Source of the DNA: Prosthecobacter fusiformis
Lineage (GTDB): Bacteria > Verrucomicrobiota > Verrucomicrobiia > Verrucomicrobiales > Verrucomicrobiaceae
Length of the DNA: 64,000 nt
Assembly (NCBI RefSeq): GCF_004364345.1
Contig: NZ_SOCA01000002.1
Location: 261,711-325,710 of the forward strand
Direction of reading: 5' to 3'
Part shown: piece by piece, positions 9,822 to 64,000 of the stretch
How the letters are laid out: every line of letters starts with the position of its first letter
How positions within the stretch are numbered: position 1 is the stretch's first letter
Notes under the pieces: generated by a model
The model's input: only the letters and a program-made list of their open reading frames with translations
Databases searched by the model: none
Told to the model about the DNA's origin: nothing
Translations under genes and position numbers: made by a program

Positions 9822-10964
9822 ATGTCCTTTTCTCCCTTTCTTCCTCCTTCCACGATTGGCATCCTCGGCGGTGGTCAATTGGGCCGTATGCTGGCTTTAG
9901 AGGCGCGGCGCAGCGGCTATCGAGTGGCTGTTTTTACGGATGAACCGCCGGGCTGCCCGGCGGGTCAGTTTGCGGATGTGGAAATCAATGCGGCTTATGA
10001 CGACACTGCGGCGCTGGAGCGTTTCCTTGCTCAGGTGGATGTGGTCACGGCGGAGTTTGAAAACATTCCCGATGCCTGCCTCCAGGCGGTTGAGGCGGTG
10101 AAGCCGTTGCGCCCAGGTCGCAAGGCGATTTATACCACCCAGCATCGCGAGCGTGAAAAGCTCTTCCTTCGGGAGAACGGAATCGCCTGCGCCGGGTTCC
10201 GCATTGTCGAAACCCTGGAGCAGCTTGAAACAGCCGTGGCTGAGCTGGGCCGTCCCTGCGTCATCAAAACCGCCGCTTTTGGTTACGATGGTAAGGGGCA
10301 GGCGAAGGTGAATACAGATACGGATCTGGCCACTGCTTGGCAGCCCTTTGAAGGTCATCATGCTGTGGTGGAACAGTGGATCCCCTTTGTCTGTGAAGTT
10401 TCCGTGGTCGGTGCACGCAGTGTGGATGGCCGTATGGCGGTGCATGGGGTGGTGGAAAACCAGCATGCGCATCACATCCTGGACGTCTCTCTGGCACCTG
10501 CACGCGTCAGCCCTGAGATCGCTGAGCAGGCGCTGGAACTCTGGGAAGCTGTGGCTACAGGATTGGAATACGTCGGCACCATGGCGGTGGAGCTTTTTGT
10601 GACGGCGGAAGGTCGTGTGCTGGTAAACGAGGTGGCCCCGCGTCCTCATAACAGCGGGCATTACACGATTGATGCCTGCGTGACTAACCAGTTCCAGCAG
10701 CAGATGCGCGCCATTTGCGGCCTTTCATTGGGAGACCCCACCCAGCATACCCCTGCCGTGATGGTGAACCTGCTCGGTGACGTCTGGCCGTCTGAGCATG
10801 TCCATCCCGACTGGTCTCCGATCCTGGGGCATCCTCGTGCCAAGCTGCACCTATACGGTAAGGCCAGCGCTAGGGCTAAGCGCAAGATGGGACACTATAC
10901 GGTGCTGGGGGATAGCCTGGACGAGGCCCTGGATAGTGTTACGCAGCTCCGGACACGGTATTGA
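9822..10964 (+). CDS. purK: N5-carboxyaminoimidazole ribonucleotide synthase
   Basis: The ATP-grasp enzyme of about 380 aa makes N5-CAIR from AIR, ATP and bicarbonate. GILGGGQLGRML near the N-terminus is the pre-ATP-grasp nucleotide loop; TAAFGYDGKGQ is the ATP-binding glycine loop; VNEVAPRPHNSGHYTIDA carries the metal/ATP ligands. ATGs at 9789 and 9822 are both possible; neither has a strong Shine-Dalgarno, and 9822 fits the family's short N-terminus better. The roughly 240 bp between the transposase relic and this gene must hold its own promoter, since the gene no longer sits behind purE. Confidence 0.94.
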   Translation: MSFSPFLPPSTIGILGGGQLGRMLALEARRSGYRVAVFTDEPPGCPAGQFADVEINAAYDDTAALERFLAQVDVVTAEFENIPDACLQAVEAVKPLRPGRKAIYTTQHREREKLFLRENGIACAGFRIVETLEQLETAVAELGRPCVIKTAAFGYDGKGQAKVNTDTDLATAWQPFEGHHAVVEQWIPFVCEVSVVGARSVDGRMAVHGVVENQHAHHILDVSLAPARVSPEIAEQALELWEAVATGLEYVGTMAVELFVTAEGRVLVNEVAPRPHNSGHYTIDACVTNQFQQQMRAICGLSLGDPTQHTPAVMVNLLGDVWPSEHVHPDWSPILGHPRAKLHLYGKASARAKRKMGHYTVLGDSLDEALDSVTQLRTRY

Positions 10965-27463: not shown

Positions 27464-28165
27464 TTAGAGGGCCTTGATGTAAAGGTCCTTATAATATACG
27501 ACGCTCTTCGGGTCATGGGCTTGAATTGCCATGGTGCCGGAGGTGAGTTTACGGCCAGCCATGTTTTTCAGGGCGGTGGCGGGATCCCAGCCTTCTGGCT
27601 CGGTCCAGTCGGTGGTGACTTTGCCGTTGATGCTGATGGTGATGTGCTTGCCATCGACTTTGATGCTGTAGTCGAACCATTCGTCATCGGCCACGGGGGC
27701 AGTATCGAGGACGTCCTTGACGGCATAAAGGCCGCCGGTCTTTTTCGGATCCTTGTGGGAGGTGCTGTTGACCTGGCATTCAAAGCCTTTTTCAGGCCAG
27801 CCTTTTTCCTGGTATTCAGTATGGATGTAGAGGCCGGAATTGGAGCCGGGCATGTGCTTCACTTTGCCTTTGAATTCGAAGCTGGTGAATTTGGCGTCGC
27901 CATTTGGGCCGACATAAAAGAGATGGGAGCGGCCATTGCTGACCTTGATGGTGCCGTCTTCTACAGAAAAGCTGTTCGGCGTTTCTTCATTGGATTTCCA
28001 GCCGGTGAAGTCCTTGCCATTGAACATGGAGACCCAGCCATCGGCTTCCGAAGGAGCGGTGGCGGTCGGAGTGGAGGCGGGGGCGGCGGCGGATTTTTCA
28101 TCGGCCGGTTTGCAAGCGGCCAGACTGAGAAGGATGGCCAGGGAGGTGAAGTGGTTGAGTTTCAT
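27464..28165 (-). CDS. DUF1080 (3-keto-disaccharide hydrolase domain) lipoprotein
   Basis: The 233-aa product has a lipoprotein signal (LLSLAAC) and an Ala/Pro/Thr-rich linker, then a DUF1080 beta-sandwich: MFNGKDFTGWKS, NSGLYIHTEYQEKGWPEKGF (CQVNS shortly after) and YKDLYIKAL at the end. Known members hydrolyse 3-keto-glycosides; the family is greatly expanded in Planctomycetes and Verrucomicrobia. The frame is open to 28204 but the ATG at 28165 starts the signal peptide. Confidence 0.9.
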   Translation of the reverse strand: MKLNHFTSLAILLSLAACKPADEKSAAAPASTPTATAPSEADGWVSMFNGKDFTGWKSNEETPNSFSVEDGTIKVSNGRSHLFYVGPNGDAKFTSFEFKGKVKHMPGSNSGLYIHTEYQEKGWPEKGFECQVNSTSHKDPKKTGGLYAVKDVLDTAPVADDEWFDYSIKVDGKHITISINGKVTTDWTEPEGWDPATALKNMAGRKLTSGTMAIQAHDPKSVVYYKDLYIKAL

Positions 28166-28209
28166 CGAGAATGGGGACTTACACGGGAGCGGGCAGGGAG
28201 GCAAGGGGG

Positions 28210-29226
28210 CTATTCCGTCTCCGAGCGGGGATCGCGGGAGAGTAAGGCGCGCATCGCTTCTTTGGCGGGCTTGGCCTGGTAGAGCATGGCGTAGATTTCA
28301 TCCAGCAGGGGAGTGCGCACGCCTTTGGCCTTGGCGGCTTCATGCAGGCTGGCGGTATTCGGCACACCTTCCGCCACCATGCGGGTGCTGGACATGATCT
28401 CCTGAAGTGGCATTCCCTCCCCGAGGAGGCGGCCGACACGGTGATTGCGACTGTGCTCGGAATAGCAAGTGGCCATGAGGTCGCCCACGCCGCCGAGGCC
28501 CATGAAGGACTCCGCCCGGCCGCCCATGGCGATGCCCATGCGGACCATTTCAGCCAGGGCGCGGGTGACGAGGGCGGCGATGGCGTTGTCTCCGAGTTTC
28601 AAACCCAGGGCGATGCCTGCGGCGATGGCATAGGGGTTTTTCATGGCGCCTGCCCACTCGACACCGGTGACGTCGTCGCTGGTATAGGTGCGGAACCAGG
28701 GGAGGGTAAAGCAGCACTGGACATCCCGGGCGATGTCGTCGTTTTCACAGGCGACAACGGCAGCGGTGGCCATGCGCTGGGAGACTTCCTCGGCGTGATT
28801 AGGACCTGTGAGGACGGCGAGGGGTGTGGTGGGAAAGGATTCGTGAAGGATCTGGGTGAGACGCCTGCCGGTATTCATTTCGATGCCTTTAGCGCAGGAG
28901 ATAAGCACCCTTGCTGACTGGAGCGCGGGCAATGAGGCCATGGTGCTGGCGGTTTCACGCACGGCTTTGGAAGGAACGACGAAGACGACTAAGTTGGCTG
29001 GCTGGAGGTCATTCAGACTGGCGGTGGCCTGGATGCTGGAAGGGAGCACGAGGCCGGGGAGGTAACGGGAGTTCCGCCGGGTGCTCTGGATTTCATCCAT
29101 GAGTTCATGGTCACGGCCCCAGAACTGGACTTGCAGCCCCCGGTCAGCCAAGACGGCGGTGAGGGCGGTGCCCCAGCTTCCGGCTCCGATGACGAGTGCG
29201 TTGGTGTAGGGCAGGGGGGATGGCAT
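28210..29226 (-). CDS. gpsA: NAD(P)H-dependent glycerol-3-phosphate dehydrogenase
   Basis: The 338-aa enzyme makes sn-glycerol 3-phosphate for phospholipids. GAGSWGTAL is the Rossmann dinucleotide loop; LTGPNHAEEV and AGAMKNPYAIAAGI hold the catalytic lysine; FMGLGGVGDLMATCYS and SRNHRVG complete the signature. NPYAI replaces the common NVIAI or NVYAI pattern, a small deviation. No signal, cytoplasmic. Confidence 0.95.
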   Translation of the reverse strand: MPSPLPYTNALVIGAGSWGTALTAVLADRGLQVQFWGRDHELMDEIQSTRRNSRYLPGLVLPSSIQATASLNDLQPANLVVFVVPSKAVRETASTMASLPALQSARVLISCAKGIEMNTGRRLTQILHESFPTTPLAVLTGPNHAEEVSQRMATAAVVACENDDIARDVQCCFTLPWFRTYTSDDVTGVEWAGAMKNPYAIAAGIALGLKLGDNAIAALVTRALAEMVRMGIAMGGRAESFMGLGGVGDLMATCYSEHSRNHRVGRLLGEGMPLQEIMSSTRMVAEGVPNTASLHEAAKAKGVRTPLLDEIYAMLYQAKPAKEAMRALLSRDPRSETE

Positions 29227-29387
29227 GGTGATTTATTAAACGCTATCAAAGAGCAGCCGAGGCAGTCCTGCCAGTGTCTTCTGTGCATGGATGCAACATC
29301 GGCGTGATGTGGCGCAAGATGAAGCCGCTGGAAGTAGTGGGCACGAATACCAAGGGTAGCGTATCGCCCTCTCTATTATCTCCACGT

Positions 29388-30599
29388 ATGAATCCCCTCA
29401 CCCATCTGGCAGGCCGCCGTGAACTGGCTGCTTTTTACCAAAAGACCCTGCTGGAAGATGTGATGCCCTTTTGGCTCAAACATGGGATGGATGCTGAGCT
29501 GGATGGAATCTTCACGGCGCTGGACCGAGATGGCAGTCTTTTGGATACGGATAAAAGCATCTGGTTCCAGGGGCGTGCGGGCTGGATGTTTTCCACAGTG
29601 TATAACACGGTGGCACAAGATCGGGCCTGGTTTGATGCAGCGGGTTCATGCTTGGCCTTTTTGGAAAAGCACGGTTATGCGACGGATGGAAAACTTTTCT
29701 TCACGGTGACACGCGAGGGCAAACCCTTGCGCATGCGCAGGTATGCTTACAGCGAGGCCTTTGCTGCGATGGGCCATGCGGCCTATGCCAAGGCATCCGG
29801 GGATCATCATTATGTGGAGGCAGCGGTGCGGGATTTTTCTTTTTACCTGCGGCACTCCTTTGAGCCGGGGTACATGATGCCAAAGGTGGACTCGAATACG
29901 CGGCCGATGGTGAGCATCGGAGCGCTGATGATCGGCATCGTGACGGCGCAGGAACTGCGCGCGAACTTGGGGCATGTGGATGTGGCGGGGCGCAGTGCGA
30001 CGGAATGGATCGATCTTTTCATCCTGGATATTCAGCGGCTGTTTTTCAAACCGGAGCTGGAGGTGCTGCTGGAAACGGTGGCCCCGGATGGCAGCATTTT
30101 AGATCATTTAGAGGGACGAATTTTGAATCCGGGGCATGCCATTGAGTGTGCTTGGTTCATTCTTCATGAAGGGCGGATGCGGGGTGAAAAGAGCTACATT
30201 GATCTGGGGCTGCGCATCCTGGACTGCATGTGGAAGTGGGGCTGGGATGAGGAAATGGGCGGGCTGTTTTACTACCGCGATGTGTATGGAAAACCGGTGC
30301 AGGAATACTGGCAGGATATGAAATTTTGGTGGCCGCATAATGAGGCGATCATTGCCACACTGCTGGCCTATGAAGTGAGCGGGGATGCCAAATATGCCGC
30401 GATGCATCAGCAGGTGCATGATTGGAGCTTTGCCCATTTTCCAGACGCTGAGCATGGCGAATGGTATGGGTATCTGCATCGAGATGGCAGTGTGGCGCAG
30501 AAGGCCAAAGGCAATATGTTCAAAGGCCCCTTTCATCTACCGAGGATGCTCTTGTATTGCGGTGAGCTTTTGAAGGAATCAACCATCGCCCGCGCCTAA
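29388..30599 (+). CDS. AGE-family epimerase, probably N-acylglucosamine 2-epimerase
   Basis: The product of about 403 aa is an alpha/alpha-barrel epimerase. The catalytic histidines are visible in NPGHAIECAWFI and WWPHNEAIIATL; GRAGWMFSTVYN and MLLYCGELLK also fit the family. Members interconvert ManNAc and GlcNAc or act on mannose or cellobiose. A sialate-lyase-like aldolase gene lies 0.9 kb downstream, so the ManNAc-to-GlcNAc reaction is preferred. The frame is open to 29274; the ATG at 29388 fits homologous N-termini. Confidence 0.87.
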   Translation: MNPLTHLAGRRELAAFYQKTLLEDVMPFWLKHGMDAELDGIFTALDRDGSLLDTDKSIWFQGRAGWMFSTVYNTVAQDRAWFDAAGSCLAFLEKHGYATDGKLFFTVTREGKPLRMRRYAYSEAFAAMGHAAYAKASGDHHYVEAAVRDFSFYLRHSFEPGYMMPKVDSNTRPMVSIGALMIGIVTAQELRANLGHVDVAGRSATEWIDLFILDIQRLFFKPELEVLLETVAPDGSILDHLEGRILNPGHAIECAWFILHEGRMRGEKSYIDLGLRILDCMWKWGWDEEMGGLFYYRDVYGKPVQEYWQDMKFWWPHNEAIIATLLAYEVSGDAKYAAMHQQVHDWSFAHFPDAEHGEWYGYLHRDGSVAQKAKGNMFKGPFHLPRMLLYCGELLKESTIARA

Positions 30600-30646
30600 C
30601 AGGCAGAAGTCCGCTCCGATAACTAACTTTTTAGACGCATAATGAT

Positions 30647-30692
30647 ACAGACCTGTCTCATCACTGGATTGTAAATAGATAGACAGGTCTGT
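30647..30692. promoter_or_regulatory. Inverted-repeat operator upstream of the tetR gene
   Basis: ACAGACCTGTCT (30647-30658) and its exact complement AGACAGGTCTGT (30681-30692) flank 22 bp, 37 bp before the TetR-family start. Symmetry and place suggest the autoregulatory operator of the repressor. Confidence 0.7.
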
Positions 30693-30728
30693 CCAAATCG
30701 AGCATCCTTGAAATAGTCGCCTGAAGCC

Positions 30729-31367
30729 ATGGATGAGTCCTTGAAGAAACAGCCCCGGCTTGGTGCACGTGAGCGCATCGTCGAGACGGCTTTAAAATTG
30801 TTTTATCGCGATGGATTGAGGGCGACAGGGATTGATAAAGTGATCGCCGAATCCGGGGTGGCAAAGATGTCTTTGTACCGGCATTTTCCGTCAAAGAGTT
30901 TGCTTGTCGCAGAGTGTCTGAGGCTGCGGAGCCAAAGCTGGATTTCGTGGTTCCAACCTGCGGTCGAAAAGAAGCTGCGAATGCCTGGCGCTGGGCTGGA
31001 AGTGATCGCTGATGTACTGCGCACCTGGTTTGCGAAAGCTGATTTTCGAGGGTGTCCTTTTATCAATGCACAGGCTGAGACGCCTGCTTCTGATGAAGAC
31101 GTCCTCGAAGTGATTCGCGAGCACAAGAGGGTGTTGGAATCCTGGCTGGTGGAGCTGGCGATACGACTGGAATATGCGACCCCCAAACAAACGGCGGCGG
31201 CGGTGATGATCGTGATGGATGGGATGATGGTGCGCGCGCAAATGACGCGAGATGCGACGGTCAACGACGCAGGCCACGTTTTGCTGAAGAAATTCAGCCG
31301 TCATGTGCATAGGGATGAACTGCAGGAAGAGGGGGAGGCAGCGCAATTATATTTGCCTGGTTTATAA
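30729..31367 (+). CDS. TetR-family transcriptional regulator
   Basis: The 212-aa product has an N-terminal TetR helix-turn-helix (residues about 13-60: RERIVETALKLFYRDGLRAT, GVAKMSLYRHFPSK) and a ligand-binding C-terminal half with FRGCPFINAQAE, as in the YxaF/LmrA-like subgroup. It sits between an AGE epimerase gene and a sialate-lyase-like gene on the same strand. Its own operator candidate lies just upstream. Control of the neighbouring catabolic genes is possible but not shown. Confidence 0.9.
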   Translation: MDESLKKQPRLGARERIVETALKLFYRDGLRATGIDKVIAESGVAKMSLYRHFPSKSLLVAECLRLRSQSWISWFQPAVEKKLRMPGAGLEVIADVLRTWFAKADFRGCPFINAQAETPASDEDVLEVIREHKRVLESWLVELAIRLEYATPKQTAAAVMIVMDGMMVRAQMTRDATVNDAGHVLLKKFSRHVHRDELQEEGEAAQLYLPGL

Positions 31368-31454
31368 GGATGAAGAGACGAACATGTTCCAGAAAAGAAC
31401 AGGTGATCAGTTGACGTATAGACAGGGACTGCTGCGTTATACTGTTTCACTTCC

Positions 31455-32375
31455 ATGATCTCCCATCCCATTACCGGTCTCGTTGCCGCCACACACACGC
31501 CTTTTCATGCTGACGGCTCCTTGAATCTGGGGATGGTGGAAAAGCAGGCGGCGCATCTTCAGCACACGGGTATTGCGGCGGCCTTCATCGGTGGCACCAC
31601 AGGTGAAAGCCATTCGCTGAGCCTGGATGAACGCAAGGCGCTGACGAAAAGGTGGATGGAGGTGACTGCTGGCAGCAGCCTAAAGGTGGTGGTGCATGTG
31701 GGGGCAAACTGCCTGGGGGATGTGGCGGCATTAGCTGCCCAGGCCCAGGAGGTGGGGGCGGATGCGATCAGTGCGCTGGCACCGAGCTACTTCAAACCGC
31801 GTAGTGTGGCGTCTCTGGTGGACTGCTGTGTGCAGATCACGGCGGCGGCTCCAGAGCTGCCGTTCTTTCTGTATGACATTCCTTCCTTCACGGGGATCTC
31901 TCTTTCGATGCCGGAGTTTTTGACGATGGGTGCTGAGCGTCTTCCGACACTCGCGGGAATCAAGTTTACTAACCCCGATGGGATGATGTTTCAGCAGTGC
32001 CTCTATCACAGTGATAGCGCTTTTTCCATCCTGTGGGGGACGGATGAATGCTTGATCGCAGGTCTGGCGCTGGGCGCGACGGGTGCGGTGGGCAGCACGT
32101 ATAATTTTGCGGCACCGATTTATCAGCGGATCATCCGGGCCTTTGGCGAAAACGATTTTGTGACGGCACGGGCGGAGCAGAAACGCTCGGTCGAACTGGT
32201 GGCTCGCCTGGCCTCCGTCGGCTACATGGGCGCGGCGAAGAGTGTTATGAAGATCCTGGGTGTGGACGTGGGTCCGGCGCGGCTGCCACATACCAATCTG
32301 GATGCGGCTCAGGAGAAGGCATTGCAGGCGGATCTGGAGGAGATGGGGCTGCTGAGCGCGGAGTTTAGGGTTTGA
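31455..32375 (+). CDS. Dihydrodipicolinate synthase/N-acetylneuraminate lyase family aldolase, probably sialate lyase
   Basis: The 306-aa class I aldolase has the Schiff-base Lys170 (AGIKFTNPD), the catalytic Tyr140 (FFLYDIPSFTGI) and the GGTTGESHSLSLDER loop. The loop and FTNPD resemble N-acetylneuraminate lyases, including the vertebrate-type enzyme, more than DapA. Reaction: Neu5Ac to ManNAc plus pyruvate. With the AGE epimerase upstream this would feed GlcNAc metabolism. No transporter or sialidase gene is present in the window. Confidence 0.82.
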   Translation: MISHPITGLVAATHTPFHADGSLNLGMVEKQAAHLQHTGIAAAFIGGTTGESHSLSLDERKALTKRWMEVTAGSSLKVVVHVGANCLGDVAALAAQAQEVGADAISALAPSYFKPRSVASLVDCCVQITAAAPELPFFLYDIPSFTGISLSMPEFLTMGAERLPTLAGIKFTNPDGMMFQQCLYHSDSAFSILWGTDECLIAGLALGATGAVGSTYNFAAPIYQRIIRAFGENDFVTARAEQKRSVELVARLASVGYMGAAKSVMKILGVDVGPARLPHTNLDAAQEKALQADLEEMGLLSAEFRV

Positions 32376-32393
32376 GGCAGGGGTTGGAGGGAG

Positions 32394-32545
<152 letters not shown>

Positions 32546-32577
32546 GAATGCCGACGGATCGTCGGCGCTCCATGGCC

Positions 32578-33375
32578 TTAGACCGCGATGGCGGCTTTAA
32601 TCGCCGGGTGGGGATCGTAGCCTTCGAGGGTGAAGTCCTCGTAGCGAAAGGCGAAGAGGTCTTTGACCTCTGGATTCAGCTTCATCACGGGCAGGGGACG
32701 AGGCTCGCGGGTGAGCTGGAGGCGGGCCTGTTCCAGGTGATTGGCGTAGAGGTGGAGGTCACCAAAGGTGTGGACGAATTCGCCGGGCTGGAGGTCGCAT
32801 ACTTGGGCGACCATGAGAGTGAGCAGGGCGTAACTGGCGATGTTGAAGGGGACGCCAAGGAAGAGATCGGCGCTGCGTTGGTAGAGCTGGCAGCTCAGTT
32901 TGCCCTTATCTACGAAGAATTGAAACAGGCAATGGCAGGGCGGGAGGGCCATCTGATCCACCACGGCGACGTTCCAGGCGCTGACGATGTGACGGCGGCT
33001 GTAAGGGTTTTTGCGGATGCCTTCGACGAGCTTAATGATCTGATCCAGGGGCTCAGCACCGGGGGCACCCTGCCAGCGCCGCCATTGGGCTCCATAGACG
33101 GGACCGAGGTCGCCGTTTTCATCGGCCCATTCGTCCCAGATGCTGACTTTGTTTTCCTGAAGGTAACGGATGTTGGTATCCCCCTGGAGGAACCAAAGGA
33201 GCTCGTGAATGATGCTGCGGAGGTGCAGTTTTTTAGTGGTGACGAGGGGGAAACCGACGCTGAGGTCGTAACGGCTCTGCTCGCCAAAAACGGAATACGC
33301 GCCTGTGCCAGTGCGGTCTTCACGGTAGCTACCGTGGGTGAGCACTTTCTGGAGCAGGCGATGGTATTCGATCAT
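32578..33375 (-). CDS. thyA: Thymidylate synthase
   Basis: The 265-aa enzyme methylates dUMP with methylene-tetrahydrofolate. Catalytic Cys147 lies in [15 protein letters not shown] near 21-25 and [20 protein letters not shown] bind the nucleotide and folate. Length and motifs match the E. coli type. It is the first recognised gene after the convergent repeat region. Confidence 0.96.

Positions 33376-42833: not shown

Positions 42834-64000
<21,167 letters not shown>

Follow-up and report, generated by a model that had tools for sequence, protein, structure and literature searches.

The locus considered here raises the question of whether a regulator gene that stands between two enzymes of sialate breakdown also controls them. 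It belongs to a 64,000-nucleotide (nt) stretch of the Prosthecobacter fusiformis genome (contig NZ_SOCA01000002.1, positions 261,711 to 325,710; hereafter the window), in which genes for an N-acyl-D-glucosamine 2-epimerase (AGE; 29388-30599), a TetR-family regulator (30729-31367) and an aldolase of the N-acetylneuraminate lyase (NAL) type (31455-32375) follow one another on the + strand with intact reading frames, just where a preliminary description of this DNA had placed them. The gaps measure 129 nt between AGE and TetR and 87 nt between TetR and lyase. That description saw in the row a compact sialate catabolic set with its own TetR regulator. The answer that we favour, and hold to be rather probable, is that the enzymes constitute an ordinary AGE-type pathway, that TetR is mainly a self-controlling neighbour, and that the lyase is under a palindromic operator of its own. 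The main value of the analysis lies in this regulatory correction, given that the adjacent TetR would come to be annotated as a sialate regulator; the comparison points instead to a different conserved operator and to a GntR/LacI-hybrid partner, which could be tested in those Verrucomicrobia that are in culture, Verrucomicrobium sp. BvORR106 among them.

The product of the regulator gene (212 amino acids, aa) scores 46.3 bits against TetR_N (PF00440; cut-off 24), in agreement with the family first assigned to it, and falls below the cut-offs of both C-terminal models, TetR_C_13 and TetR_C_13_2. The gene is preceded by a perfect 12-nt inverted repeat, ACAGACCTGTCT / AGACAGGTCTGT, with a spacing of 22 nt, contained in a predicted operator pair (30645-30694) that is composed of ATACAGACCTGTCT (30645-30658) and AGACAGGTCTGTCC (30681-30694). 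Among 68 genomes of the family, 13 gave a TetR match at E <=1e-15 and six carry a clear ortholog (E <=1.5e-89), namely the window genome, G076, G018, G034, G019 and G070; a comparable operator pair, in its best form AGACAG-N2-CTGTCT twice, is found upstream of TetR in all six. A scan allowing up to two mismatches covered the lyase leaders of five genomes (window, G076, G018, G034 and G019) and the AGE leaders of these same genomes other than G018, and it found no copy of the operator. Because the pair recurs at the regulator's own promoter and is missing from the enzyme leaders, TetR is probably an autoregulated repressor that acts through this double operator, and since the operators lie downstream of AGE, it is left without an evident means of controlling that gene.

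Scans of the whole window genome (5.83 Mb in 32 contigs) recovered three exact copies of AGACAGGTCTGT, two of which constitute the pair at the TetR promoter, the third (C14) residing inside a mechanical 606-aa open reading frame (ORF). At up to one mismatch there are 13 sites, compared to 35 for a reversed control pattern; TetR sites are therefore not enriched genome-wide, and a genome-wide TetR regulon was rejected on these counts. One of the ten sites with a single mismatch, at about window position 63483, falls inside an ORF. The regulator is under purifying selection, with a dN/dS (the ratio of nonsynonymous to synonymous substitution rates) of 0.05-0.30 where estimable, many dS values being saturated, and its dN is approximately 4-5 times that of the enzymes.

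Gene order in relatives bears directly on the same question. A search of 56 genomes, the window genome included (E <=1e-40 for AGE and lyase, E <=1e-12 for TetR), returned AGE in 44, lyase in 37 and TetR in 9. The order AGE-TetR-lyase occurs in two of the six genomes with a TetR ortholog, those of the window and G076, between which the enzymes are 88 and 91% identical and TetR just 58%. G018 presents TetR, lyase, a BNR-repeat gene, a deacetylase gene and a dynamin gene in succession, with AGE on a separate contig. AGE and lyase of G034 and G019 are directly adjacent with no TetR between them, and the genes run gpsA / AGE, lyase, BNR-repeat protein, polysaccharide deacetylase and dynamin-like protein. 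The TetR orthologs of G034, G019 and G070 lie elsewhere, each divergent to a DUF1348 gene, and those of G034 and G019 (58 and 54% identical, respectively) do so beside a gene for a class I tRNA synthetase (E and Q). A lyase was not found in G070, the genome of which is 87% complete. The row of three genes is thus not a conserved unit. The same holds farther afield, where the best 80 of at least 575 lyase loci from named genomes, each taken with flanks of 10 kb at most, yielded no TetR match at all (0/80 at E <=1e-4). In the window genome itself, the deacetylase, the dynamin-like gene and a third gene, those that follow lyase and BNR in G034 and G019, are found together about 0.35 Mb from the lyase, without BNR or lyase (L089 9793-14308; G000:C2).

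These arrangements speak most clearly against TetR as a repressor devoted to the set, answering to sialate and acting on AGE and lyase alike, an account that suggests itself where the three genes lie side by side, in the window genome and G076, and that we regard as highly improbable. It would leave the operators in the wrong place, past the end of AGE and ahead of TetR, while close relatives carry the AGE-lyase pair without TetR and none of the 80 named loci has a TetR match in its flanks; the positions of the operators and the order of the genes led us to reject TetR as the regulator of both enzymes. Of the compact set with its own regulator, the enzyme pair stands, whereas the part given to TetR is not supported, its operators having been seen just at the TetR promoter and the gene itself being absent from between the enzymes in G034 and G019. 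TetR is most likely a neighbour, recent by the look of it, which some members of one clade have gained or retained; it would stand beside the lyase in just part of this small clade and act mainly on its own promoter through the double operator, its linkage to the enzymes being inconsistent.

The TetR orthologs beside DUF1348 resemble a known arrangement, that of a TetR regulator with a divergent partner within 200 nt, as presented in the available text of PMC3511530, in that G034, G019 and G070 have the operator pair between the two divergent genes. The window differs from it, as its TetR is co-directional with both neighbours. DUF1348 was not found in G076 or G018, and the copy in the window genome is at another location. 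A more distant TetR in G040 also lies beside DUF1348, with CGACCGGTCGGT palindromes close by (L078 4800-6500), which hints that TetR and DUF1348 may be paired more widely, there with another operator. A literature search found nothing on DUF1348 together with TetR; a lead to LmrA/YxaF gave no operator sequence in the portions of that literature available; and a search on TetR, sialic acid and N-acetylneuraminate lyase gave, among the matches listed, no title concerning TetR control of sialate.

What the lyase leaders do share is a second palindrome. Common to the five clade leaders (window, G076, G018, G034 and G019), with or without TetR upstream, are a block around AAAAGAACAGGT, in which one base varies in G034, and the hexamer GTTATA, a possible lyase promoter core kept in 5/5 leaders (31436-31441, + strand, in the window). 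The block is one half of a palindrome with the consensus CCTGTTCT-N5-AGAACAGG, present in all five leaders, always with an N5 spacer and 68-75 nt upstream of the start codon, with no mismatch in G018, two each in the window, G076 and G019, and four in G034. In the window it reads CATGTTCC-AGAAA-AGAACAGG (31383-31403). That the lyase leader carries this other palindrome irrespective of TetR, together with the count of 0/80, speaks against the control of the set by TetR that had been suggested for it.

The palindrome also points to a partner. Allowing up to four mismatches, it occurs in 8 of the 80 named lyase loci, every one with N5, and a gene for a hybrid regulator is found in the flanks of 7/8 of these compared to 6/72 of the others (Fisher p 4e-6, with related loci taken as independent and therefore a guide only). 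In the seven named loci with both, the site lies 59-71 nt before the lyase start. All hybrids that were tested (five named and two from the genus) combine, according to Pfam, a GntR DNA-binding helix-turn-helix (HTH) with a LacI-type sensor (Peripla_BP_3). In the genus and order, 33 distinct lyase leaders were compared, and eight carry the palindrome at the same tolerance, these being the five clade members plus L035 and L036 (two mismatches, at -71) and L050 (four mismatches, at -131), the last three being exactly those with a hybrid gene in their 1.5-kb flanks; the remaining leaders have none (0/25). Random 200-nt windows of the named loci, drawn with the true sites still included, matched at up to four mismatches in 38/8000 cases for N5 and in 272/8000 for spacers of 3-8.

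Stricter scans tell much the same. TGTTC-N7-GAACA has six copies in 1.45 Mb scanned, 6/6 of them in lyase leaders. When up to three mismatches were allowed, 14 matches came from 1.33 Mb of loci of named genomes and of the genus. Lyase leaders account for 10 rows (8 distinct places); another match immediately precedes the RraA-BNR genes of L148, which would fit a regulon pattern, and three lie elsewhere (L154, L174 and L195). At AGE leaders (31 rows, 30 distinct), G034 and G018 carry palindromes with four mismatches and G019 one with five. LexA was entertained as the owner of the site and is unlikely, for the half-sites are N7 apart here, and the N4 form, TGTTC-N4-GAACA, which we take to be the LexA box of Verrucomicrobia although a literature search did not find it, occurs once in the 1.45 Mb, in a planctomycete locus.

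Given the conserved lyase operator and its co-occurrence with the hybrid gene, the GntR/LacI hybrid is proposed as the ancestral sialate regulator, acting at the lyase palindrome. In P. fusiformis, the lyase would then be driven from its own promoter under the CCTGTTCT-N5-AGAACAGG operator, and the cognate regulator would most likely be such a hybrid, which is near the lyase in relatives and would act in trans or have been lost in the window genome. Hybrids of this type are known, AraR of Bacillus being one, and the lyase-linked genes of relatives share with it the GntR HTH and the Peripla_BP_3 sensor; they differ in that both the sialate role and the operator are proposed here by comparison, as are the pairing of protein and site and any effector, and in that the gene was not found in the window-clade sequence searched. 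A GntR/LacI-hybrid sialate regulator appears in no title or abstract opening among the literature matches listed, and none was returned for lyase, Verrucomicrobia and GntR combined. In two Verrucomicrobium genomes (L174 and L196), the lyase leaders, at about 9900-10000, bear a variant palindrome, GACCTGTCTGGGGAAAAGACAAGT, which the consensus missed. L174 is the locus of Verrucomicrobium sp. BvORR106, where the hybrid gene lies beside the lyase and the lyase-leader palindrome has six mismatches; the hybrid regulator of these two loci may use a shifted site.

Several observations weigh against the reading of TetR as a mere neighbour and of the lyase as a gene under its own hybrid-bound operator. 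On the side of the palindrome, 6 of the 13 named loci with a hybrid gene (one of them, L158, a short partial match) lack the site, and L171 has a four-mismatch copy at -199 and no hybrid gene. The palindrome overlaps the end of the hybrid-gene frame in L159, L177 and L036/L086, as does a second copy in L148, an overlap that does not occur in L156, L164, L167 and L035, nor at the L148 lyase. The AGE leaders of the window and G076 are without it (seven mismatches each), and a search of 982 kb, mostly of the window's clade and partly overlapping, gave no hybrid regulator beyond a lone 16-bit match in L299. A sigma-70 consensus promoter was likewise not found at the lyase leader, GTTATA included, for which reason the lyase promoter is placed there by inference. 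On the side of TetR, the regulator is adjacent to the lyase on the same strand and 82-88 nt away in three of the six genomes that have it (window, G076 and G018), and a terminator-like site was not found in the gap between them, so that read-through is possible. In the lyase tree, G018 falls outside the other four clade members with support of 91/96, short of the mark for firm support, and the TetR-lyase linkage would therefore be either ancestral and then lost, or gained twice, and either would be odd for a pure accident. Of the other trees, that of TetR is poorly resolved (1/6 inner branches starred), that of AGE leaves the clade unresolved, and an unrooted one built from AGE, lyase and gpsA together separates G034 and G019 from the remaining genomes.

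Such observations give most weight to the alternative that TetR has been recruited to the lyase, which would be co-transcribed from the TetR promoter and tuned by a TetR ligand, perhaps a compound of the sialate pathway, on top of its own promoter. The recurrence of the pair in three genomes with differing outer neighbours, a gap free of terminator-like sites and a lyase leader without a consensus promoter are all as this account would have them, as are the facts that the only exact operators outside ORFs in the window genome are the pair at the TetR-lyase unit and that its DUF1348 gene has neither TetR within 1.5 kb nor an operator at up to one mismatch. We nonetheless consider it doubtful, as the leader of the lyase is conserved and holds a palindrome of its own, G034, G019 and G070 pair the same TetR with DUF1348 instead, and the 87-nt gap exceeds the 35 nt used as a limit for co-transcription in the available text of PMC3511530. 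A related and still unlikely view is that sialate control has been caught midway through a hand-over, from an ancestral GntR/LacI hybrid at CCTGTTCT-N5-AGAACAGG to a TetR freed from DUF1348 and taking over the lyase by read-through. With TetR taken as mainly self-controlling, as we prefer, it would perhaps still act on the lyase through read-through, in a minor role.

There remains the question of whether the enzymes are what they appear to be, the alternative being that the aldolase acts on another 2-keto acid and the epimerase on another sugar. The epimerase (403 aa, with a reading frame already open from a GTG at 29274) passes the curated cut-off of the Pfam model GlcNAc_2-epim (PF07221) with 152.9 bits against 23.4. 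Among NCBIfam models, AGE (NF052547) leads by far at 345 bits, compared to 69.1 for cellobiose epimerase and 28.7 for mannose isomerase, although this falls below its equivalog cut-off of 600. The closest solved structure is the N-acylglucosamine 2-epimerase 8bry (482 bits), followed by 6f04 and 2gz6, and the AGE identity claimed beforehand is supported by both comparisons. In the Nostoc enzyme nAGE10, the catalytic residues given in the available text of PMC6333288 are Arg58, His373, Glu309 and Glu243, and these are all kept at R63, H383, E319 and E253, respectively, when placed through the 6f04 alignment. R63, H250, E253, E319 and H383 are conserved in 54 or 55 of 55 aligned AGE rows (matches longer than 330 aa, among them the query itself, the locus of the window and one locus counted twice). 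A further AGE match, in G010 (C5:138327-139021), is in two pieces with stops and is apparently a broken gene.

The same text proposes an N-acetyl pocket of Phe/Ala/Ile in AGE and of Tyr/Asn/His in cellobiose epimerase (PMC6333288). The window enzyme has Tyr121/Gly178/Ile182, of which Gly178 and Ile182 are AGE-like and Tyr121, at the position of Phe116 in Nostoc AGE, is the residue of cellobiose epimerase; homologs are split at this position between 25 Tyr and 30 Phe in the 55 rows. A specificity for mannose or cellobiose is unlikely, judging from the best matches to AGE, the kept catalytic residues and the two AGE-like pocket positions.

The aldolase (306 aa) scores 180.4 bits against the dihydrodipicolinate synthase (DHDPS)/NAL family (PF00701; cut-off 22.1). 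Its top two NCBIfam models are N-acetylneuraminate lyases, with dapA a close third at 129.1 bits, and it remains below both equivalog cut-offs (150.5 vs 281 bits for NF003164; 132.5 vs 382 for TIGR00683). The closest solved structures are all N-acetylneuraminate lyases (6h4e, 209.5 bits; 5afd, 208.7; 6arh, 185.5), after which the next lyase structures, presumably those of the Escherichia coli enzyme (EcNAL), score about 116 bits or less and the first DHDPS 111.8. The lyase-like motifs read from it at the start, GGTTGES, Tyr140 and Lys170, are present, and profiles and structures alike place NAL at the top. K170, Y140 and T172 are invariant among ten aligned homologs, as are D197 and E198, which we take to be contacts of the sialate tail; Tyr140 presumably has its usual role in lyase catalysis. 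The Schiff-base Lys of these enzymes is followed two residues later by a Thr or Asn, and this residue, Thr167 in EcNAL and Asn168 in the Aliivibrio salmonicida lyase (AsNAL), matters for turnover (PMC6559660, in the portion available). T172 aligns with it. Lyases of the AsNAL type (5afd; also 6h4e) are the closest solved relatives; their catalytic lysine aligns, and where EcNAL has Ser47 the window lyase has the same Thr as they do, whereas it has Thr172 where AsNAL has Asn168.

Other substrates for the two enzymes are accordingly very unlikely. Both do stay under the NCBIfam equivalog cut-offs, and Tyr121 is the cellobiose-epimerase residue; yet N-acetylneuraminate lyases and AGEs lead widely among the solved structures matched, Tyr and Phe vary at this position among AGE homologs, with the other two pocket positions AGE-like, and relatives cluster genes for lyase, AGE and BNR-repeat proteins. 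A route from N-acetylneuraminate (Neu5Ac) through N-acetylmannosamine (ManNAc) to N-acetylglucosamine (GlcNAc) is well supported by the families to which these closest solved relatives belong. The lyase would split Neu5Ac to ManNAc and pyruvate, as in an ordinary pathway of the Verrucomicrobiaceae, and AGE would convert ManNAc to GlcNAc, with entry into amino-sugar metabolism to follow.

AGE-type sialate catabolism is exemplified by Bacteroides and Pedobacter, where NanA is joined to AGE, and the window lyase and AGE belong to the matching families; the window differs in having no adjacent sialidase or transporter gene and in having a TetR gene between the enzymes. NanA of Verrucomicrobia is already on record, in a clade with Bacteroidetes that adjoins eukaryotes (PMC2693436, in its available text), so the enzyme pair itself adds little that is new. 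Elsewhere in the window genome, genes resembling glucosamine-6-phosphate deaminase reach 241.7 and 239.2 bits on the matched pieces against TIGR00502 (cut-off 236.9). The sialidases and sialate transporters for which the preliminary description advised a search have candidates in 18 BNR_2 matches, for all of which a sialidase identity need not hold, and in a major facilitator superfamily (MFS) gene with 87% identity to one near the lyase in G023, of the same genus. The MFS protein resembles several NCBIfam subfamilies, including sialate:H+ symport, but every score is far below cut-off, and none of the deaminase-like, BNR_2 and MFS genes lies beside the window set. A second aldolase of the DHDPS family is followed directly by two BNR_2 proteins of about 282 bits each (L280 3727-7043; G000:C1), and for this aldolase the dapA and HpaI models outscore nanA.

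The set is bordered on the opposite strand by gpsA upstream and by thymidylate synthase downstream. An RNA element at the locus was rejected, as an Rfam scan of 28000-33000 gave no family at gathering score. Directly 3' of the lyase stop codon, at 32394-32442, lies a tandem repeat of CAGTGCT in approximately 6-7 units.

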